This document shows positions 37,246-49,763 of a stretch of 64,000 bases of DNA, in pieces. The DNA is taken from assembly GCA_013316825.1 (NCBI GenBank), contig WSLY01000011.1:1-64000 (forward strand). Direction: 5' to 3'. The translations under genes and the position numbers were made by a program. Within the stretch, counting starts at the first letter, position 1. Each line of letters opens with the position of its first letter. The DNA comes from Lachnospiraceae bacterium. GTDB lineage: Bacteria > Bacillota > Clostridia > Lachnospirales > Lachnospiraceae. The notes under the pieces are model-generated. The model was not told where the DNA came from. It worked only from the letters and a program-made list of their open reading frames with translations, and did not search any database.

Positions 37246-39513
37246 TTATCCTGCATCCTGCAGCCGGTTCAAACGCTCTATCAATTCCTCTACCTGCGCA
37301 AGCTTCACCTGTCCGCCCGAGAAAGAAAGTGCAGAACGCAGAGGCATATACTGCATCATTGCATCCACCATATCCGCTGTTCCCTCGCCCATACTGCCGT
37401 CGCTGCCGGAATCGGCAATCCCCATCTGCGCCACCAGCGCTTCCAAGATTTCCTTCGCGCCTGCAATTTTCATAATATCGCCAAACGTAGTATCCATGGT
37501 GACAAAAATACGCTTTCCGGAAGTATCCTTTACCGCCACCTTTTCCGACAAGCAGATATCCCTCGACGATTTTCCAATCTCTATCCGGTATTCCCCTGTA
37601 GGAACCCTGAAATCCGATATCTCCGTATCATAATAGGCAAAAGCGCGCTTACGCAGTTGAAAAGAAACCGTCTTTCTCTCACCAGGCGCAAGCTCTACTT
37701 TCTCAAATCCCCTAAGCTCCCTCACGGGGCGGATGATATCTCCGTCCTCCGGCGCCGCCACATAAAGCTGTACGACCTCTTTGCCCGCGCACTGTCCTAC
37801 GTTTTTCACCTCCACAGTCACAAGCAGCTCTTCCGTATCACTCATCCGTTTTTTGGAAAGCTTCAGATTGGTGTAGAGGAAGCTTGTATAAGAAAGACCG
37901 TGCCCGAAAGGAAAAAGCACTTCCATTTTCTTTTTGTCATAATACCGGTAGCCTACAAAAACGCCTTCTCTGTACTCTACCTTATCGCCCTCGCCGCTGT
38001 AGAAAATATAGGACGGATTATCCTCCAGCTTTAAGGGAAATGTCTCCGGAAGCCTTCCGCTGGGATTGACGTCCCCGTAAAGCACGTCGAGAACAGCGCC
38101 GCCTACTGCCTGCCCGCCCAGATACGCTTCCAGAACACCTTTCACCTTATCAATCCACGGCATTTCCACGGGGGAGCCGTTGTGAAGCACCACAATGGTA
38201 TTGGGATTGGCATCGCTCACTGCTTCTATCAATTCATTCTGGCACTTTGGCAGATGCATATGCACACGGTCAAAGCCTTCTGATTCATAGGCATCCGGAA
38301 GTCCGGCAAACACCACCGCAGTATCTGCAAGTGATGCCGCCCGAATTGCCTCGGAAAGCAGCGTATCATCCATCCTGTCCGCACCTGCACTGTAGCCCTG
38401 TGCATAAATCACATGGGACTTATCCGCCATTTCCCATGCGGATTCCGTCCTGCAGGTATTGATATGGGAACTGCCTCCGCCCTGAAATCTGGGTTTTTCA
38501 GCAAATTCACCGATGAAAGCAATCCTTGCCCCCTTGCGCAAAGGCAGGACGCCGTCATTTTTTAAAAGCACCATACACTCCGCCGCCGCTTTGCGCGCCA
38601 GCCTGTGATCTGCATCCATGTCGTAAACAGCCCCCTCCTTCCGGTTAGCCGCACTCTTTTCCACAATAGTCAGGATACGCTCCACTGCCTTATCCAGCAC
38701 TTCTTCCGCAAGCTCTCCCTGCTCCACCGCTTCCACAATTTTCTTATCACCAACGCCAAAGGAAGTCGGCATCTCCAAATCAAGTCCTGCCTCCAAATCG
38801 GCAGCTCTGTCGTTGACTGCGCCCCAATCGCTTACCACAAAGCCGTCGAAGCCCCATTCGCCGCGCAGCACATCCGTCAGGTATTTTTTATTCTGCGCCG
38901 CATATACGCCGTTTATCCGGTTATAAGAACACATCACGGTCCAAGGCTTCGCCGCCTTTACCGCTTCCTCAAAAGCCGGCAGGTATATTTCGCGTATCGT
39001 CCGTTCGTCCGCCTCGCTGCTGGAGCTCATCCGCCTGTGTTCCTGACTATTCAAAAGAAAATGCTTGATGCTGGTGCCGACGCCCTGACTCTGCACGCCT
39101 TTTACGTAGCTTGCAGCCGCCTGTCCCGCAAGATACGGATCCTCGGAAAAATACTCGAAATTTCTCCCGCAGAGAGGAGAACGTTTGATGTTTACCGCCG
39201 GCCCCAAAAGTACGCCGATTCCCTCCGCCTGACATTCCTTTCCCAAAGTCTCTCCCAGCAAACGAAGCAGCTTTCTGTCAAAAGAAGCGGCAGTAGCGCA
39301 GCCTGCCGGAAAGCAAACGGCTTTCACGCTCTCGTCCAGTCCCAGATGGTCTCCCGTCTCTTCCTGTTTCCGCAGTCCGTGCGGTCCGTCGCTTACCATC
39401 ATCTGCGGTACATCGAGACGCTCCACTGCTTTGGTGCGCCAAAAATCTGCGCCGGAACAAAGCCCTGCTTTTTCTTCCAGTGTCATTTTCCGTACGATTT
39501 CTTTCACATTCAT
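37246..39513 (-). CDS. Glycoside hydrolase family 3 beta-glycosidase
   Basis: 755 residues, cytoplasmic (no signal peptide). The GH3 N-domain contains the nucleophile motif GFDGFVVSDWGAVND and substrate loops SDGPHGLRKQ and IKHFLLNSQEHRR; the GH3 C-domain and a fibronectin-III-like domain (VEVKNVGQCAGKEVVQLYV) follow. An extra 80-residue tail of unknown role ends in ELIERLNRLQDAG. Likely a beta-glucosidase or beta-xylosidase on imported oligosaccharides; specificity cannot be read. It has its own promoter. Confidence 0.95.
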   Translation of the reverse strand: MNVKEIVRKMTLEEKAGLCSGADFWRTKAVERLDVPQMMVSDGPHGLRKQEETGDHLGLDESVKAVCFPAGCATAASFDRKLLRLLGETLGKECQAEGIGVLLGPAVNIKRSPLCGRNFEYFSEDPYLAGQAAASYVKGVQSQGVGTSIKHFLLNSQEHRRMSSSSEADERTIREIYLPAFEEAVKAAKPWTVMCSYNRINGVYAAQNKKYLTDVLRGEWGFDGFVVSDWGAVNDRAADLEAGLDLEMPTSFGVGDKKIVEAVEQGELAEEVLDKAVERILTIVEKSAANRKEGAVYDMDADHRLARKAAAECMVLLKNDGVLPLRKGARIAFIGEFAEKPRFQGGGSSHINTCRTESAWEMADKSHVIYAQGYSAGADRMDDTLLSEAIRAASLADTAVVFAGLPDAYESEGFDRVHMHLPKCQNELIEAVSDANPNTIVVLHNGSPVEMPWIDKVKGVLEAYLGGQAVGGAVLDVLYGDVNPSGRLPETFPLKLEDNPSYIFYSGEGDKVEYREGVFVGYRYYDKKKMEVLFPFGHGLSYTSFLYTNLKLSKKRMSDTEELLVTVEVKNVGQCAGKEVVQLYVAAPEDGDIIRPVRELRGFEKVELAPGERKTVSFQLRKRAFAYYDTEISDFRVPTGEYRIEIGKSSRDICLSEKVAVKDTSGKRIFVTMDTTFGDIMKIAGAKEILEALVAQMGIADSGSDGSMGEGTADMVDAMMQYMPLRSALSFSGGQVKLAQVEELIERLNRLQDAG

Positions 39514-39576: not shown

Positions 39577-39605
39577 ATTATATACGAAACGCAGATAGCT
39601 GGCAA
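39577..39605 (-). promoter_or_regulatory. Promoter of the GH3 gene
   Basis: Minus-strand TTGCCA (39600-39605), 17 bases, TATAAT (39577-39582), immediately downstream of the solute-binding lipoprotein stop. Confidence 0.75.
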
Positions 39606-39612
39606 TTTGAAT

Positions 39613-41811
39613 TTAACGACTTTCATTCAAATACAACTGCACCCTGTTTTCCATAATCCCGCATACTTCTTCCAGACTTTTGCTGCCATTAAAATAATCT
39701 GCCGCCTCTTCATAAATAATATCGAGGATGGGTGTGGTGCGTATCGGGTATGCACGCGCTTCCTCCAGCGCCTTTTTGTATGCCTCTATTTTCTCCTCCG
39801 TAATGTCCTCCGCAGTATAAACCTCCGTCCACTGTTCACCCGCCGCACCGTTTTCGCCTATCATTGTAACCGTAATGACAACCTTCTTTCCGCCTGCCAC
39901 CCTTTCCTTCTGCCCGTCCATCAACAAGTCAAAAGCGCTTTTAAGAGCCGGCATATTACCCTGCGCAGCATAAGTATTCTGCGCCTCCTCTTCCAACAGA
40001 AAACAGATAAATTCCCAAGCGCCTTCCTTGTGGGCAGAATTTGCATTGACTGCCAGCGCTGAAAACGGAAAAAACGCCATATGACATCCGTCATCGAACA
40101 GAACGCCCAACGTTACCATTTCTCTTTCTTCCTGCTCCTTGGGACCATGAAAATAAAAAATATCCGAATAATTGCGTCCTAAGTCCTGTGCCAGACTCGG
40201 AAAGCGTCCTCCTCTGCCGTCATCCCCATACCGCTTTGCAAGCTCCAGTATATTCCGAAACAGCTCCCCGCTGAAATCGCAGGTTCCCTGTTCCCAGTCC
40301 ACGCTTCCCCACAGCGTTTCCGTTCCGCCTAAAAACACCTCCAAAAGCTTCTGGGGACCATAATTTTTCATGTATACCGCCTCTTCCTGCCAGGAAAGCA
40401 GGGCATCCACCAGTGTGCGGATATCCGGCTTACGTCCGCCCAGAACCTCTTCTGCAATCTCCGCCCCTTCTCCGCCGGAAAATCTTGGACAGATTCCATA
40501 GATTCTGCCCTCCTCCCGCCAAAGATTGAACGTAAAGGGAAAATAATCCTCCTCCCTGATACCGCTCTCTTCTACATAAGGGCTTAAATCCTCCAAAGCT
40601 CCTTTTTCCAGCATACCGGTAAGATAGTCCTCCAGCAATTCCCCGCACAAAATATCCGGTCCTTCCCCTGTAGCAATCTGAACGCTGGTTAATCTTGCAT
40701 AATCTGCTATATCGCCCGGTCCGCAGCTTTCTATTACCACATGGTAGGTATCGCTTCTTGCATTAAACAAAGCTGCCTGTCCGGAAATCCAGCCGTCGAC
40801 GGCAATGCCGCCCCTGATAACAATCGGAATTTTATCCACCTTTTTTATCTGCAGTCTGTCGCATATGGCTTTCGTGCCATCCCGTTCGGCATACAAAAGC
40901 TCCACGCTTCCATCCTCCAGCACTCTGAAATCCCAACGCTCCATTTCATAGGAATCATAGGTATATTGAGGATTATAGGATGTTCCCTCAAAAGAAAAGA
41001 GACTGTTTTCTGTTCCATCCGCCATGTTCAGCTCTGCAATTTCTCTGCCCCGTATAAAGCTGTTATTGTACAGAAGCAGCGTATCGCTTCCCGCTCCAAG
41101 ACTCTGTTCGCCCTCTCCCGGGTTTGCCAGCCTGACCTGTTTTACTTCCTCCGTCTGACCTGTCGCAGGGTCAAGCTCCATCAGCCGCCTTACCCGCGCC
41201 TCTTCCAGAATCAGATACACTCTGCCATCCGGCAGGCTGCAAATATCCTTTATCTCTCTGCCGTCCGTCCATTCCCTTGTAAAAAGAATTTCCCCCTCCG
41301 GCAGATATTTGACAAGCGCAGAACGGACCGCCTTTGCCGCCGCCCCTTCTCCCTCATAGGTATTCCCCCAGCAGTAGCCATTTCCTTTTGTATCAAGATA
41401 CACCTCATAAATAAAGTCCAAAGAAGTCTGCCATAACAGCTCGCTGCTTCCGTCATTCCTGTACAAATACACATCCGAATGGGAATAATTGCCTGTATCG
41501 TCACGGCAGATTTTTTCCCAAAGCTGTACCGGCTCGCCCTGATAAAACTGCATACCACGCAAATACATTTCCGAATCGGACAAGGGAGATTCCCTTTCGC
41601 TTTCCTCCCATGCAAAAATGACCTGCGGCTCTGCATAAATATCGTAATATTCTGCCTGTCCCAAAGGCTCTTCATCTGCCGCTCCCGAAGCCAAATCTTT
41701 TGCTGCAGGTTTGGTATCCTGCACCCCTTCCGCTTCATGCGTCTCCTGCTTTCCGCAGCCTGTAAAAAGCAAAACGCACCATATCCATAATAAAAAACAA
41801 AATTTTTTCAT
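39613..41811 (-). CDS. Lipoprotein with N-terminal propeller-like region fused to an extracellular solute-binding domain
   Basis: 732 residues. Signal peptide with lipobox LLFTGC. Residues about 50-340 form repeated beta-rich units (DDTGNYSHSDVYLYRNDGSS, DTKGNGYCWGN, LPDGRVYLILEE) like a propeller. From about 345 it matches family-1 sugar-type solute-binding proteins (TSVQIATGEGPDILCGELLEDYL, GALEDLSPYVEESG, WEFICFLLEEE). No permease or ATPase is adjacent. Its ATG overlaps the BlaR1-like stop (ATGA), so it may act in the same sensory system rather than in transport. Confidence 0.8.
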   Translation of the reverse strand: MKKFCFLLWIWCVLLFTGCGKQETHEAEGVQDTKPAAKDLASGAADEEPLGQAEYYDIYAEPQVIFAWEESERESPLSDSEMYLRGMQFYQGEPVQLWEKICRDDTGNYSHSDVYLYRNDGSSELLWQTSLDFIYEVYLDTKGNGYCWGNTYEGEGAAAKAVRSALVKYLPEGEILFTREWTDGREIKDICSLPDGRVYLILEEARVRRLMELDPATGQTEEVKQVRLANPGEGEQSLGAGSDTLLLYNNSFIRGREIAELNMADGTENSLFSFEGTSYNPQYTYDSYEMERWDFRVLEDGSVELLYAERDGTKAICDRLQIKKVDKIPIVIRGGIAVDGWISGQAALFNARSDTYHVVIESCGPGDIADYARLTSVQIATGEGPDILCGELLEDYLTGMLEKGALEDLSPYVEESGIREEDYFPFTFNLWREEGRIYGICPRFSGGEGAEIAEEVLGGRKPDIRTLVDALLSWQEEAVYMKNYGPQKLLEVFLGGTETLWGSVDWEQGTCDFSGELFRNILELAKRYGDDGRGGRFPSLAQDLGRNYSDIFYFHGPKEQEEREMVTLGVLFDDGCHMAFFPFSALAVNANSAHKEGAWEFICFLLEEEAQNTYAAQGNMPALKSAFDLLMDGQKERVAGGKKVVITVTMIGENGAAGEQWTEVYTAEDITEEKIEAYKKALEEARAYPIRTTPILDIIYEEAADYFNGSKSLEEVCGIMENRVQLYLNESR

Positions 41812-44372
41812 GGTATCTCCTCGAGCTTCCTATCCTTCAGACTCAACGTCTCATAATTATATTTATCTGCTTCCGATATCTGCTCTGTCCGTATCTCTCC
41901 ATCCTGCGTGCTCAGAATCAGACGGCTGTGCTCCAGATAATATGTCATGGGCGCTACCCATTCTTTCAATAAATCGTCCCTGTATTCCGTCGCAAGTCCC
42001 CATTCAAACAAAGAACTCGCTATCAGCCGGATTTCTCCCTCTGCGGAAAGCCTGTATACCCAGTATCTATACGCGCCGGTATCGTACCTGTCTTCTATAT
42101 GCACGCCCATAATAAAGCCTGTGCCGTCTATCTCTCCCAGATAAACATTATTCCAGTCCACCCGTGCCACATGTGCAAATTCAGAATGCAGCAGGCTGCC
42201 GGACGCATCCCGAAACAGCACCCAGCCGCTGTCGCCGTCTCCTGCATCGCCGATATATATCTCTATCTGCTCATCACCCGCACTGTCCGCCACATCAAAG
42301 GTTTCCGTTCCGACAAGCGTATAATACCTCTCCAGCATATCCTCGCCATAAACTTCCTGCGTATAGTACGAATAAATGGGATCCGCCGGCTTTGGCACAT
42401 ACTCTATGCCATACATGCATAACGGACTCATCACTGCAGCTTCCACAATCACATTATCTATCAACGTAATCCTGACGCCATCATAAACACCATTCTCCCG
42501 CCTTGGCAGGGTATCTATAAACTCCTCGCAGGAGACCTCCTTGTAGTTTACGGTTTCCATTGCCGTATTCACCTTATAAACACAGTCCTCTGCAAATACA
42601 AGAGACTCTCCTTTGTCCGCAAGCTGTTCTCCGGTATCCATGTACAGACTATACGATGCAATTGTCATCGGCTCTTTCTCTGACAGCTCGCTGAAATATA
42701 CCGTCCCCGTCACCGCCTCTTTTTGACTGCCGCCCGCTCCTCCATTCTCTCCGCCGGCTTTATCCGCACCGCCGTCTTCCTCTGACCCGCTATTCTCCGG
42801 CAAAGCGTTTCCCCCCTCATCCTGCGCCTTGATATAAACCCGCGACATGGTATAGCTTATTTCTGCAAGAAATATCTTAGTATCCTCAGCAGAAAGCTCT
42901 ATCGTAGCCTGATTCTTTTCCTTATCTACTTCCAGAACCGGCACCATGCGCCAAGGCTCTTCCTTTTCCCCTGATATGTCAGTCCGGTAGATTTGCAGCA
43001 TATCTCCCGCCTCCACTTCTTCACCGCCTATCACTGCCGGTCCTTCTATAGGAAATGAAATACGGTAGCGGTCTTCCCCTTCATAAGAAAGCGCCACGCC
43101 GCGCCGCATAATATAGACATGCTCCACAGGCTCCGAAAAGGTTGCCGGAAACGTTTCCCGTACCAGCACATCCGCTCCCGGGGCAAACAAAAGCTCTACC
43201 AAATCTCCCTCTCGCAGGTCCTGTCCATCCTCGCCGGGCTCAAAATAAGTTTCAATTTCATCTGCATGCAGTTCCACTACACCAAGCACCGGAATCACCA
43301 CCACATGCCTGCCGTCATACTCTTCGACAACGCCATAAAGCGCCTCCGGTACGGTCTGCGTCTCCCCGTCCGCCAAATTCTTCTCATCCTGTGCGCCACG
43401 TTTGGAAGGATTGGCAATCAGCACCACCCCCACGGCAGCCGTCGCCAAAGCCGCTATGCAGAGAATTGCGATTGCCGGTTTTTTATAGCGGAGCACATTT
43501 TGAATCCTGCTGCCCGTATCTCCCTCTCCAAAGGCAAGCGGCACGCCGCCCACAATCTGTCTGCCCGTGGCAAGATTTAACAAGGAAGCAGAATATTCCT
43601 TTTTGACGCCGCTTCCCATTTTTCGGATAACCGCCTCGTCGCAGGACATTTCCATATCCCTGCCGCACAAGAAAAACGCTGCCCACACCAGAGGATTAAA
43701 CCAGTGCACGCACAAAGCCAGCCAAAAGAAAGCCTTAACAAGATGGTCTCCCCTCCTGATATGTGTCTGCTCGTGCAATAAAATATACGCCCTCTCCTCT
43801 CCTGCAAACGCTTTAGGCAGATAAATTTTCGGCAGGAAAATGCCGCACACAAAAGGCGTCTCCAAATTCTCCTTTGTATATATATTGCCTCGTTCATGTT
43901 CCGCCGACTTTAATTTTCTCTTGAGTCCCGCCAGCGACGCCACACTATATACCAAAAGAGCCAGCACGCCCAGCAGCCAAATCCGTGAGCCCGCCGTAAG
44001 CGCCGTCTGCATTCTATTTGCGGCGGGCATCTTATCGGGCGCCCCTCCCTGCAAATCTGCCGTTCCCTGTACTGCTGCCGCAATCGGCGGCGTATCCGCC
44101 GCAGGCAAAGTCATTTCACCCTCGTTTACCGAAATATAAGCAATCTGTCCCCCCGCCGTCTTCGGCGCATCCAAAACCCCCAGCAGGGAAAACGCCGCCG
44201 AAAAAGAAAACGGACAAATCAGGCGAAACAGCACTACTGCCCACAAAACATAGGAAAAAATCTTTGGCGCCCTTCTCAGCAGAAGCCTAAGCGCCATGAC
44301 AAAAGGTATAATGATTCCAGCCGTCAGGCTCATATTCAAAATCCCTATAAAAAGCTTCTCCAACATTGACAT
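41808..44372 (-). CDS. M56-family BlaR1/MecR1-like membrane metalloprotease with a non-beta-lactam sensor region
   Basis: 854 residues. The N-terminal membrane domain has the zinc protease motif LLHEQTHIRRGDH after family segments SYVLWAVVLFRLICP; a further membrane segment (AIAILCIAALATAAVGVVL) leads to a C-terminal region of about 530 residues. In BlaR1 this would be a penicillin-binding domain, but no SxxK/SxN/KTG set is visible here; it is acidic and beta-rich with an EDGGADKAGGENGGAGG linker. By analogy it is a sensor that cleaves or inactivates the upstream BlaI-type repressor. Ligand unknown. Confidence 0.85.
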   Translation of the reverse strand: MSMLEKLFIGILNMSLTAGIIIPFVMALRLLLRRAPKIFSYVLWAVVLFRLICPFSFSAAFSLLGVLDAPKTAGGQIAYISVNEGEMTLPAADTPPIAAAVQGTADLQGGAPDKMPAANRMQTALTAGSRIWLLGVLALLVYSVASLAGLKRKLKSAEHERGNIYTKENLETPFVCGIFLPKIYLPKAFAGEERAYILLHEQTHIRRGDHLVKAFFWLALCVHWFNPLVWAAFFLCGRDMEMSCDEAVIRKMGSGVKKEYSASLLNLATGRQIVGGVPLAFGEGDTGSRIQNVLRYKKPAIAILCIAALATAAVGVVLIANPSKRGAQDEKNLADGETQTVPEALYGVVEEYDGRHVVVIPVLGVVELHADEIETYFEPGEDGQDLREGDLVELLFAPGADVLVRETFPATFSEPVEHVYIMRRGVALSYEGEDRYRISFPIEGPAVIGGEEVEAGDMLQIYRTDISGEKEEPWRMVPVLEVDKEKNQATIELSAEDTKIFLAEISYTMSRVYIKAQDEGGNALPENSGSEEDGGADKAGGENGGAGGSQKEAVTGTVYFSELSEKEPMTIASYSLYMDTGEQLADKGESLVFAEDCVYKVNTAMETVNYKEVSCEEFIDTLPRRENGVYDGVRITLIDNVIVEAAVMSPLCMYGIEYVPKPADPIYSYYTQEVYGEDMLERYYTLVGTETFDVADSAGDEQIEIYIGDAGDGDSGWVLFRDASGSLLHSEFAHVARVDWNNVYLGEIDGTGFIMGVHIEDRYDTGAYRYWVYRLSAEGEIRLIASSLFEWGLATEYRDDLLKEWVAPMTYYLEHSRLILSTQDGEIRTEQISEADKYNYETLSLKDRKLEEIP

Positions 44373-44396
44373 TTTCTCCTCCCATCCTTCTATTCT

Positions 44397-44753
44397 CTAT
44401 TCACTTTCCTCTATCATTCTTTTCAGCTCCGCGATTTCCTTCTCTCCCAGCTTATTTCTTCTGGAAAACGCCGCCAGAAAGCGGGGCAGGGAACCGCCGA
44501 AGGTCTCTTTGATAAACTGTTCTCCCTGTGCCGCTTCAAATTCCTCCTTAGAAGTCAGCACTGTAACCGTACCGTTTTCGTTGACAAACAGCCCCCGCTC
44601 GCACAGCCTTTTTAACATCGTGTACGCCGTCGTCCGCTTCCAGTCAAATGCCTGTTCACACAGCTTTGCCAGCTCCCCCGATGCAAGCGGAGCGTTCTCC
44701 CATATCAATTCCGCAAGCCTGCGCTCCATCTCTCCCAGCTTATACCGTTCCAT
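44397..44753 (-). CDS. BlaI/MecI-family transcriptional repressor
   Basis: 118 residues: a winged helix (MERRLAELIWENAPLASGEL, TTAYTMLKRLCERGLFVNE) and a C-terminal dimerization helix region. 24 bases upstream of the BlaR1-like gene, in the classic repressor-protease order. Two dyads covering its promoter (44827-44873) are its probable operators. Confidence 0.93.
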   Translation of the reverse strand: MERYKLGEMERRLAELIWENAPLASGELAKLCEQAFDWKRTTAYTMLKRLCERGLFVNENGTVTVLTSKEEFEAAQGEQFIKETFGGSLPRFLAAFSRRNKLGEKEIAELKRMIEESE

Positions 44754-44826
44754 AAAATCCTCCGTTTCCTATCCTGTTTCCTATCATGTCAAAAACTTGT
44801 TTTCTCCTTGTTATGTATCGCAAGCA

Positions 44827-44855
44827 AAAACTGTCTAATACCATTAGACAGTTTT
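44827..44855 (-). promoter_or_regulatory. BlaI-type operator 1
   Basis: Perfect dyad with 13-base arms, AAAACTGTCTAAT, ACC centre, ATTAGACAGTTTT, lying over the transcription start. The core TGTCTAAT half is shared with operator 2. Confidence 0.8.
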
Positions 44856-44884
44856 AGTCTAACAGTATTAGACAGTTTTGTCAA
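44856..44884 (-). promoter_or_regulatory. Promoter of the blaI-blaR1-lipoprotein operon with operator 2
   Basis: Minus-strand TTGACA (44879-44884), 17 bases, TAGACT (44856-44861). A second dyad GTCTAA-CAGTA-TTAGAC (44857-44873) covers the -10 box and spacer. Two adjacent operators on one promoter indicate tight autorepression. Confidence 0.85.
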
Positions 44885-45190: not shown

Positions 45191-47232
45191 CTACTCCAGA
45201 ATAAAGCTGTCCACAATTTCTTTCAGACTGCCGGCATTGCTGCGGTTCATCTTCGCCAGCTCTTCTTCATCCGCCATGCGCTGTACAATGTCGGTGGTCT
45301 TCTCCGCAATATGGGAAATCCCTACCGCAGACTCTCCGGTCATACGTCCGATTACACCGCTCGCCTCTCTGATATCCTCAATGGCTTCCTCCAGCGTATG
45401 TACCGCCTGCATAATATCTTTCATACTCTTTTCATAGTTTTCTGCGTCAAAAGCATACTGCTCGCCGACATGCATAAATTCCCCATAATCCTCCAGCACC
45501 GTTTTTTCCAAAAACTCCGTGGAGGAATGCAGACATGCCGACATGCCTTTTACCGCCGCATAGACCTCTTCAATAATCACATTAATATTTTTCACCGTAT
45601 TCTGCGTCTGGCTGGCAAGACTTCCGATTTCCTCCGCCACCACCGCAAATCCGCGCCCTGCGTCACCGGCGCGCGCCGCCTCTATGGAAGCGTTCAGGGC
45701 AAGCAGGTTGGTCTGGGCGGATATCTCCAGAATATTCTGCGTCAGCTCATTGATTTTTTCTACTGCCCTTGATTTTGCAATCGCCCCTTCCGTCTCCTGC
45801 CGCATCTGCTCATACATCGCCTTGGTGCGCTCCGTCGCCTCCCTTGTCGTATGGCTGAGCGCCTGCGCGCGCTCCGATATCCTTCCTGCATCCGCCTCGC
45901 CATTCCGGGAAAGCCTTGCTATCGTGGATGCCTTGTCATCAACCGTCGCCACATCCCTGTTGATAGTCTCTGCCGTTGCTGCCGCTTCCTCCATGGCTGC
46001 CGCAAGCTCCTCGGTGGTAGCAGAATTGTCGCTGCACATTTCGCCTACTCTGCCGGAGCTTTCATTAATCTGCTCCGCACTGGACAGCACCAGCTCGCCG
46101 GTTCCCTCTAAACGCTTTACAATTCCCCGCAGCCGGTCGTTCATCTCCTTGACGGCTCTCGCCATCGCTCCCGTCTCATCCTTCAGCTTTTCCAATTTTT
46201 CCAGTCTGTTATCCGGTTTCAGATTAAGCTGCGCATTCTTTCTTACAATTTCCGTCATCTGCTTTAGCGGTTTTGCAATACCGCTGCTTAAAAAGAACCC
46301 TACAAGCGCGGAAAAGACCACCGCCAGAACGCCGGAAAGCAATATCGTTAAAAGCAGCCTTCCCGACTCTGCCCTGACCTCCGACTTTGGTGCGGTCAGC
46401 ACAAATTTCATACCATTTGCAAGCGACTTATAACAGCCGATTTTCTGTACCCCGTTATAGCTGTAACGAATCTCACTGCCTTCCTTCGAGGCATCCAAAA
46501 GTGCTGCATAAAGCGCTGAAAGACTGCTGCCTTCTATGTCCGCAATGGCGGTGCCAAATGCCACTTCGTCATGGTATACCACCTGATTGCCGGAATTGAC
46601 AAGAAATGCAGAGCCCGTATCATATATTTTTACACTGCCCGTCAAATTCTCTATACTGCCAAAATCAATATCCATGCCCACAATTCCCACAGAAACACCG
46701 TCCACAAAAATGGGAACCACATAAGAAATCATGTAGACGTCAATATTTGCGTTCAGATATGGATCCATCCAAGTGGCGGTTCCGTTCTGCACCGGTATGT
46801 AATACCAGCCTACATGCGCTGTATCACTAGGGTCATACATCGAAAAATCCGTGGGGACAAGCTGCTCAAATTCCTCAGCCGCTGAGCTTCTGCTGGCAAA
46901 AATACCGGAAGTCTATTGTTTGCAAATTCCAGTGCGACAGAGCGCAGGGATTCCGTATACTTTTCCACATAGCGGGAATCTGTTTTAAACTTGTCAATAT
47001 CCGTCAGCGACTGCTCCATAATCCGCGCCAGCGTATCCACGGACTGCTCCACCCGAATCAGCGTCGTATCGATTTCCTGTCCGCTGTTCTCACACTGCAT
47101 TGCCATTTGCTTCGCCATATTCTGATTGGAAACAGACTGCGTCCGCAAAAGACTCAAACCTCCGCAGATACACGTCGAGACGACAGCGCAGATTATCACC
47201 AGCGCCACCACTTTTGCCTTTAATGATTTCAT
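45191..47232 (-). pseudogene. Methyl-accepting chemotaxis protein with Cache domain, broken by a frameshift
   Basis: Two frames make one chemoreceptor. The N-terminal part (start 47232 after GGAGGAAAAT) has the first membrane segment and coiled Cache helix up to LEFANN. The C-terminal part reads TSGIFASRSSAAEEFEQLVP, then DFSMYDPSDTAHVGWYYIP, second membrane segment, HAMP and signalling tip [20 protein letters not shown]. Relatives carry about 15-20 residues (a strand like AxxVYIRFNP) between FANN and TSGIF; these are missing and the frame is shifted. So the lesion is a small deletion. Translation restart at MYDPS would give a receptor lacking a first anchor. Confidence 0.8.
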
Positions 47233-47327
47233 ATTTTCCTCCATTCCCCTTGTTGTATCTTTTTGAGGATTTTTATCCCCCTATATCCATTAAACCACAA
47301 AACCGGCACTTTTCAAGCCTTGCATTT

Positions 47328-48575
47328 TCATAAGTGAAAATAAGCTTTTACAAGCAGGCAGAACATGGAATTTGCCCACGCAAACCAAGGACGTGTATAC
47401 CGCTGCGGTTCATCCGCATCCACACCCTCATGCATATACCCGGTGCCCGCCGTCGTACTCACCAGCATATCGAGCATCTCCTTCTGCTCCTTGCGGCTCT
47501 GCGCCGTCAGCCCTCTTATCGCGACTGCAATATGCCAGACATAGCCCTTAGGCGTGTGGGGACTCCCCACCCCTTCTGCCGCCCTTCCTTTATAATAATA
47601 CGGATTGCTCTCACTCAGCACAAAACGCCTTGTATTCCGGTAAATCCCATCTTCCTTTTCGCAAAAGCCAAACCACGGCGCCGCCAGCAAACTCGGCACA
47701 TTGGCGTCATCCATCAGATTATAATGCCCCATTCCATCCGTCTCATAGGCAAAGATTTCACCATATGCCGGATGCCTGACAATCCCATAACGGTAAATCC
47801 CCTCCGCAATCTCCTCCGCAAGCTTTTCTGCCCTGCATGCAGTCTCCTTCCCCACGGACAGCTTGCACAGCCTTCTTAGGGCGCTAACCGCCAGCATATT
47901 AGCGGGTAATAGATAGTGATACCGGCAGGCGTCATCGCTGGGTCTGAAACCGGACCAAGTCATGCCCGTGTAGGAGACAGGCGTTCCTCTGCCCTGATTC
48001 TGCAGGGTTTCCGTCTCCAATTCGCTGTCACGTTCAAAAGTATAAGAAGAGGATTCATGATGCTGCTCCGTTTCCCAGACCTCCAAAATTCTTTTCAGCG
48101 CAGCAAGCACACGCTCCGTAAAAATGTCCTGTCTGCCCGTCGCCGCAATATATTCTGCCAGCAGTAAAATCGGAAAAGCCAGCGAGTCCACCTCATATTT
48201 TCTCTCCCAGATAAAGGCGCCCATCTTTGTTTTATCGCGGCTGTAGCAGCTAAAATCCCCCTTCTTGTTAAATGCGTTGGCATAGGCATCCGTCAGAATC
48301 AGCTCCGCCTGCTTTCGGATAAGCCCTCTAAGCGCCCGCTCCACCGTCTCATCCGAAACCGCCCTGAAATAAGGCAGCACCTGCATGGAGCTGTCCCGAA
48401 GCCACATCGCCCCAATATCTCCGGTAATCACAAAGGTACTGCCGTCCTCCTCCATGGAAAGCGTCGTCTCCCAAGTGCTCCGAAAGCATTTTTGGTAAAC
48501 CTGGCAAATCTTTTCGTCCCCTATTTTTTCACAGTCTGCACGCAGCAGCTCCTGTAGTCCCTCTGTCAATTCCAT
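47328..48575 (-). CDS. Glycoside hydrolase family 125 exo-alpha-1,6-mannosidase
   Basis: 415 residues, no signal peptide, so cytoplasmic. The family block FVITGDIGAMWLRDSSMQVLP and NKKGDFSCYSRDKTKMGAFIWERKYEVDSLAFP are clear, with the C-terminal MHEGVDADEPQRYTRPWFAWAN. GH125 enzymes are metal-independent inverting mannosidases trimming alpha-1,6-mannose from N-glycan or yeast-mannan fragments. Suggests use of host or dietary glycoproteins. Confidence 0.92.
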   Translation of the reverse strand: MELTEGLQELLRADCEKIGDEKICQVYQKCFRSTWETTLSMEEDGSTFVITGDIGAMWLRDSSMQVLPYFRAVSDETVERALRGLIRKQAELILTDAYANAFNKKGDFSCYSRDKTKMGAFIWERKYEVDSLAFPILLLAEYIAATGRQDIFTERVLAALKRILEVWETEQHHESSSYTFERDSELETETLQNQGRGTPVSYTGMTWSGFRPSDDACRYHYLLPANMLAVSALRRLCKLSVGKETACRAEKLAEEIAEGIYRYGIVRHPAYGEIFAYETDGMGHYNLMDDANVPSLLAAPWFGFCEKEDGIYRNTRRFVLSESNPYYYKGRAAEGVGSPHTPKGYVWHIAVAIRGLTAQSRKEQKEMLDMLVSTTAGTGYMHEGVDADEPQRYTRPWFAWANSMFCLLVKAYFHL

Positions 48576-48597: not shown

Positions 48598-49656
48598 TCA
48601 GTCAGAACGCCTATAAAAATCTTCCATCATTCGAAACTCCTCAAAGGGAATGACAATATCCGTCGCCCCCTCTGCATAGGAAGCAAGCTCATAAACATCA
48701 TAGCTTAAGCCAATCCCGTCCCCCGTCAAACACATAACAGTTGCTCTCGTACATGCCATGAGCGCCCGGAAACCAGTAAGCTTCATGCGTCAGGTATAAC
48801 GAATTTACCCCCGCCGTGAACCCCTCGGGCAGCGTAATTTCTTCCCATTCCTCACTGTCCGCCGCAACCCGTCCCAGCCCGCCTTCCTCATTGTATACAA
48901 GAAAGAAACCAAAGTTTCTTGCACAGTAAGGAAACGTATAGCAGTCCGGATAATATTTCGACCGTGATACAGAATAGCCGTAGGGCATTGATGGTGGTAT
49001 CCTATAGGGCAGATCGGTGGTAATGTCAGCCGGTTCCACTTCTCCTGCCCCATTCAACCGATGACAAGTTATCTTATCTCCTCTCACCAAATATAAAACA
49101 TTCTCGCAAATATCCATCGTTAGATAGCTTTGATATTCGTATCCGTCGTAAAGCTGTCCGGCATCAGGCACATTCTCATCCAGCAAGGTAAGCTCCGTTC
49201 CATCCTTCCTTACCCTGTACAGCAGTATCTTTTTTCCGTAGGGGCTGATGTCCGGCACCTCCAAAAAATAAACCCAGTCGCCGTAAAGACAAAACCATTC
49301 GCCCCGCTGCTCGGAAGCCGCCTCATACAGTACGGTCCTTTCCAGCGTGTCCGCATCATACCGCCCCAGTATCCGTAAAAGTATCCGTCCTCCGTCTGCA
49401 CAAGCCTTCCCGTATTATCCTGAAAGTACGGCACGCTGCCAAAGACCGGCTCATTTTCCGCCCCGCCCGTTTCCTGCACAGCATTCTCTTTTCCGTCCGG
49501 CAGCCCTGCCATACAGCCATTTTCCCCGTCCGGCAGCCCTTCCACACCGCTGTCGAAGATGGAAGTCTCTTCCTTGTTTTCTTTGAAAGGCATCACACAT
49601 GCGGCAACTGCTGCCGTCATCAAGCAGGCTGATATAAAAAACACTGCTTTTTTCAT
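48598..49656 (-). pseudogene. Decayed lipoprotein paralog of the propeller/RsiV-like protein
   Basis: Paralog of the intact gene just upstream (49764-51668). The N-terminus (ATG 49656 after AAAGGAGAATACAG) has a lipobox AVAAC and VPYFQDNTGRLVQTEDGYFY. After GYWGG the frame is lost by a 13-bp deletion; it resumes as YDADTLERTVLYEAASEQ and PDISPYGKKILLYRV (ORF 48698-49264). A second, larger deletion joins LYLTHE to YWFPGAHGMY, dropping about 250 residues. A third joins YVF to LTGDGIGLSYDVYELASYAE out of frame. Three lesions make it non-functional. Confidence 0.88.
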
Positions 49657-49763
49657 CTGTATTCTCCTTTTCTTTTTAATCACTTTTTAGGCGTTTGCAA
49701 AACTCAGTAATTATTCTGTTGTCATTGTGCGCCTTGTATATTCTAACGCAGACGCGCTTCCGT

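Follow-up and report, generated by a model that had tools for sequence, protein, structure and literature searches.

A BlaI/BlaR1-type operon with a sensor lacking penicillin-binding motifs and an accessory solute-binding lipoprotein gene in a Lachnospiraceae bacterium

The BlaI/BlaR1 pair is known as a penicillin alarm. The locus described here, found in a window of 64,000 nucleotides (the whole stretch of DNA analysed) from a Lachnospiraceae bacterium, raises the question of what such a switch perceives and controls when its sensor carries no penicillin-binding domain and a lipoprotein gene follows that of the protease. In the ORF list of the window, three minus-strand genes are arranged head to tail, i.e., a blaI-family repressor (118 aa; 44397-44753), an M56 membrane metalloprotease with a non-PBP ectodomain (854 aa; 41808-44372) and a lipoprotein (732 aa; 39613-41811), and the last two overlap by 4 bp (ATGA, 41808-41811). 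The first-pass annotation had described an operon of this composition with this overlap, and the ORFs and strands agree with it; its interval, 41808-44884, covers blaI and the M56 gene, but the lipoprotein gene falls outside. No beta-lactamase or PBP gene was found within the operon from the ORF list and Pfam. We consider, with a probability of about 0.65, that the locus encodes a self-regulating switch of the BlaI/BlaR1 type with a non-penicillin sensor and with the solute-binding lipoprotein as a regulated cargo, for which the membrane topology, the cleavage of BlaI and the derepression are predicted.

The Penicillinase_R winged helix (PF03965) spans the full length of the profile in the repressor (1.3e-21, positions 1-115 of 115), and the protein aligns with the MecI/BlaI structures. 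S. aureus BlaI is cleaved at Asn101-Phe102 (PMC9834060), and the residue aligned with this Phe102 is Phe96 of the window protein (44466-44468, minus strand), the putative P1' cleavage residue; 80 of 82 relatives carry Phe at this position. The M56 protein matched Peptidase_M56 (PF05569) at 3.5e-58 over residues 11-292. Its zinc motif HEQTH (residues 200-204; 43761-43775, minus strand) was aligned with the BlaR1 residues, and H200, E201, H204, the downstream Glu ligand E241 and D245 are invariant in 31 relatives. In the protease region, where the zinc ligands match, a profile built from these relatives could be aligned with S. aureus BlaR1 (8exp). Phe281 is also invariant in the family and probably corresponds to the BlaR1 autocleavage residue Phe284, as judged from the spacing (81 versus 83 residues past the first zinc His), the alignment itself ending at 266. 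Because the zinc ligands and the cleavage Phe of BlaI are conserved, the cleavage chemistry looks intact at the level of sequence, and cleavage of BlaI would be expected.

The operon promoter, TTGACA-17-TAGACT with an extended TG (44856-44884, minus strand), is overlapped by two exact 17-bp dyads of the form GTCTAA-N5-TTAGAC (both unstranded). Operator 1 (44857-44873) lies between the -35 and -10 elements and over the -10 element, and operator 2 (44833-44849) lies 24 bp downstream. The earlier claim that two dyads cover the promoter was thus borne out by exact 17-mers at these positions, far above chance. Dyad operators at its own promoter are a trait of the BlaI/MecI family, seen here as two conserved 17-bp dyads. 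The exact 17-mer was found nowhere else in the genome assembly (2.37 Mb, 73% complete). When 18 genomes were searched for the 41-bp pair, with up to three mismatches allowed in the 24 fixed bases, the pair was present in 17 of them, recurring 5' of blaI in related operons, and the control gave zero hits. All copies save one were at blaI-M56 operons, and almost every relative with this sensor has the pair, at the 24-bp pitch, in front of blaI. The only pair away from a blaI-M56 operon is an extra tandem operator with a TTGACA promoter in genome G023 (C98; L262:1416-1456), which faces a gene on the minus strand (233 aa, weak F420_ligase match). A wider regulon in the genome of the window was considered and rejected, since only three single-mismatch operator sites were obtained, fewer than the control count of 16.

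The lipoprotein has a lipobox Cys19, a beta-rich N-terminal part and a C-terminal solute-binding domain, and matched SBP_bac_8 and SBP_bac_1 with 36.6 and 35.5 bits (cut-offs 27 and 26). The closest solved relative of the solute-binding part is CbpC (7x0o, 3e-20). The protein resembles CUT1-type solute-binding proteins and CbpC in this domain, including its C-terminal tail, and differs from them in the extra beta-rich N-terminal part of about 270 residues and in the lack of an adjoining permease. This N-terminal part shows a weak periodicity of about 35 residues and no Pfam match, and the structure model of the lipoprotein (pLDDT 40, with few relatives in the alignment) was too poor for a fold search. 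The lipoprotein had been described as a fusion of propeller-like and sugar-binding parts; the solute-binding domain stands, while the propeller is unproven and sugar binding holds at the family level only, with CbpC as a counter-case, which bound no sugar and had a blocked pocket in one study (PMC9601137). No relatives of the lipoprotein were found on viral contigs.

The nearest competitor of the main explanation holds that the lipoprotein is an ordinary solute-binding protein serving an ABC importer whose genes lie elsewhere, and that its control by the switch has no functional meaning. This would fit with the multicopy nature of the family, of which this genome has about 13 other members, with the matches of all 25 aligned relatives to SBP_bac_1/8, and with a cluster at G000:C17:59795-76367, where solute-binding lipoproteins of this family lie with two BPD_transp_1 permeases. 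On the other hand, the lipoprotein is kept at this locus in G017 and G027 with 73–75% identity over the full length, and no permease was found in the operon or adjoining the lipoprotein gene, as had been said from the first reading of the sequence. We regard this alternative as possible at about one chance in four; it overlaps with the cargo reading, and the sole difference is whether the regulation matters.

The C-terminal ectodomain of the M56 protein, about 534 residues, contains neither KTG/KSG nor SxN/YxN, and its single SxxK, at residue 467, has no partner motifs, so that the motif scan agrees, this isolated SxxK included, with the first reading of about 530 residues without the SxxK/KTG set. 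Pfam gave no match in the ectodomain, including PF00905, and the NCBIfam model blaR1_generic matched only residues 163-355, at 67.5 bits where the cut-off is 400. From the structure model and the alignment, two beta-rich modules were delineated, module 1 at residues ~343-515 (42828-43346, minus strand) and module 2 at residues ~555-835 (41868-42710, minus strand), which is the best conserved part of the sensor. The model had a mean pLDDT of 74, with values of about 90 in much of the range 590-850. Among the 50 PDB matches listed, there was no penicillin-binding fold except BlaR1, itself matching on the protease, and hence no structural match of the ectodomain to a beta-lactam sensor. The remaining PDB matches were DDB1 propellers with TM-scores near 0.09, which we did not count as support for a propeller fold of the ectodomain. 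The proposal of a proteolytic switch of the BlaI/BlaR1 type whose sensor is not penicillin-binding is upheld by the conserved residues and by the lack of any sequence or fold match of the sensor to a beta-lactam sensor among those searched.

The same holds for the relatives. Among 83 related M56 ectodomains, none (0/83) had a transpeptidase domain; the domains detected were DUF4825 (14), Peptidase_M23 (2), DUF5301 (2), FG-GAP (2) and others, and one related M56 protein had an outside SH3_3 domain. This sample was collected by similarity to the M56 protein of the window, and is therefore uninformative on M56 proteins at large. Nor is a transpeptidase domain present in the two further M56 proteins of this genome, and the three transpeptidase domains of the genome belong to non-M56 proteins. 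Because of the 0/83 count and these two proteins, M56 sensors of the non-penicillin kind are, as judged from domain content, the norm in this group, and the sensor of the window is less unusual than the first-pass annotation had taken it to be. The repressor and protease are thus combined with sensors of other kinds in a large group of gut Clostridia, for which the annotation "beta-lactam sensor" or "resistance" is misleading. M56 genes are expanded in some genomes, with 25 (G059), 15 (G081) and 14 (G026) matches per genome, where some open frames exceed 1000 aa and the ectodomain lengths are very varied.

The operon was compared with known systems; literature searches on M56 sensors without penicillin-binding domains yielded only a mention of M. 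tuberculosis and a DAP-seq study of C. thermocellum. The operon shares with S. aureus BlaI/BlaR1 (8exp, 1sd4) the winged-helix repressor, the Phe at the cleavage site, the M56 zinc ligands, an outside sensor and dyad autoregulation, but it has no penicillin-binding sensor and no beta-lactamase/PBP2a output, and the gene order is blaI-M56-lipoprotein. C. thermocellum BlaI_0696, as determined by DAP-seq and EMSA, recognizes inverted repeats of GTCTAT with a 5-nt spacing, of which each target has two, and its target operon encodes BlaI, two BlaR1s and a hypothetical protein (PMC8457756). That system is alike in its tandem inverted-repeat operators, its BlaI-BlaR1 operon with hypothetical genes and its regulons, which are small and centre on the operon itself, and the BlaI_0696 operon with its two BlaR1s resembles those of G017, G027 and L064 with two M56 genes; it is unlike in the half-site (GTCTAT versus GTCTAA here) and in the cargo gene, and the likeness is drawn from operators and gene content. 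M. tuberculosis BlaI/BlaR (Rv1846c/Rv1845c) is also a BlaI paired with an M56 protease without a penicillin-binding sensor domain (PMC9834060), although BlaR has no equivalent sensor at all, in contrast to the ectodomain of another kind, with ~534 residues, found here.

These comparisons bear on a second alternative, in which the protein would sense beta-lactams or cell-wall stress indirectly, e.g., through peptidoglycan fragments. The C. thermocellum operons, whose operators share this design, were interpreted as responding to beta-lactams (PMC8457756), the sensorless M. tuberculosis homologue is discussed in a beta-lactam context (PMC9834060), and Peptidase_M23 (two cases) and SH3_3 (one) are among the outside domains of related M56 proteins. 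However, the window protein has no penicillin-binding motifs or fold, its operon carries no beta-lactamase or PBP gene, and the exact operator occurs at no other locus in the genome. Indirect detection of this kind is unlikely, at perhaps one chance in five.

In the cargo reading, which we prefer, the operon promoter would be kept shut by BlaI dimers on the two dyads. The M56 protein would span the membrane, with the zinc protease on the inner side and the beta-rich modules, about 530 residues, on the outer side, and an extracellular signal bound or felt by these modules would activate the protease. Cutting of BlaI before Phe96 would then derepress the operon, and the solute-binding lipoprotein would be made as the regulated cargo. 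Since the tandem operator is strict and the cleavage-site Phe conserved, a simple reporter would suffice to test for the signal.

The distribution of the genes shows how closely the lipoprotein belongs to the switch. The sensor is common to about 30 Lachnospiraceae operons. The operonic lipoprotein was found in the window, in G017 (twice) and in G027, and also beside a distant M56 in G020 (L165), whereas about 26 sister operons with the same sensor lack it. In L064 (CAMWUP010000023.1), the order GH125-blaI-M56-M56-GH3 is kept with a sensor of 69% identity, and only the last codons of the lipoprotein gene are left between M56 and GH3. A second M56 is present in G017, G027 and L064, without ectodomain module 1, while the window has a single M56 gene of the full-length kind. 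In the M56 pairs of L064 and G017, the proteases are 83–87% identical, versus 63–72% for the outside parts. Contigs C28 and C45 of G017 share 95–99% identity in their aligned parts and are possibly strain variants. Because about 26 operons lack the lipoprotein and it was deleted in L064, it is not needed for sensing in general, and a regulated cargo is the simpler reading; it is an occasional passenger, not a required part of the switch, though it could have a feedback role within its own clade.

Among the 30 cases with this sensor, 12 have a convergent next gene, and many of the operons therefore have no dedicated cargo gene. The preferred explanation does not account for what the switch would control in these cases, which counts against it. 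In a third alternative, the switch is closed on itself and the protease is its output, which would cleave other proteins of the membrane or cytoplasm, with cargo added occasionally. It draws on the tandem operator being almost always at the own operon only and on at least 12 of 30 operons having a convergent neighbour with nothing downstream co-transcribed. We consider it improbable, slightly more so than indirect stress sensing; if true, the signal would be read by an uncharacterised ectodomain family.

The earlier proposal that the lipoprotein presents the ligand to the protease was not supported. In this reading, the lipoprotein is a co-sensor, which would bind a solute, possibly a glycan, and hand it over to the ectodomain of the M56 protein, in the manner of XylFII and LytS, a precedent cited in PMC9601137. 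The shared operon with its 4-bp overlap, the solute-binding domain, the second, distant BlaI-M56-lipoprotein operon of G020 (L165) and the GH125 and GH3 genes flanking the locus would favour it. Against it, about 26 operons have the same sensor without the lipoprotein, the gene is deleted at the same place in L064 next to a similar sensor, and the relatives are multicopy, some beside a permease pair. Among 12 genomes rich in both families, the M56-lipoprotein adjacency was found in G020 only, by our estimate about what chance allows. An obligatory presenter is rejected as the main reading by the distribution and the L064 deletion, and a co-sensor in any form is doubtful, at odds of roughly one in eight.

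The GH3 gene (37246-39513, minus strand), which flanks the operon downstream, could be taken as its output, as no terminator was found between the lipoprotein and GH3 genes, but it has its own promoter, TTGCCA-17-TATAAT (39577-39605, minus strand), conserved in L064 and L146. On the other side of the operon lies a gene of the alpha-mannosidase family GH125 (47328-48575, minus strand). GH125 and GH3 are conserved neighbours of the operon in G017 and L064, and a link to glycan use is possible. Between GH125 and blaI, a methyl-accepting chemotaxis protein gene (45191-47244, minus strand) is frameshifted in the dCache region into ORFs of 144 and 549 aa, and is a pseudogene or an assembly error; L146 and L064 have no such gene at this place. 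A second lipoprotein gene (48698-49683, minus strand) is likewise split by a frameshift, into ORFs of 157 and 188 aa, and two neighbouring genes are thus frameshifted.
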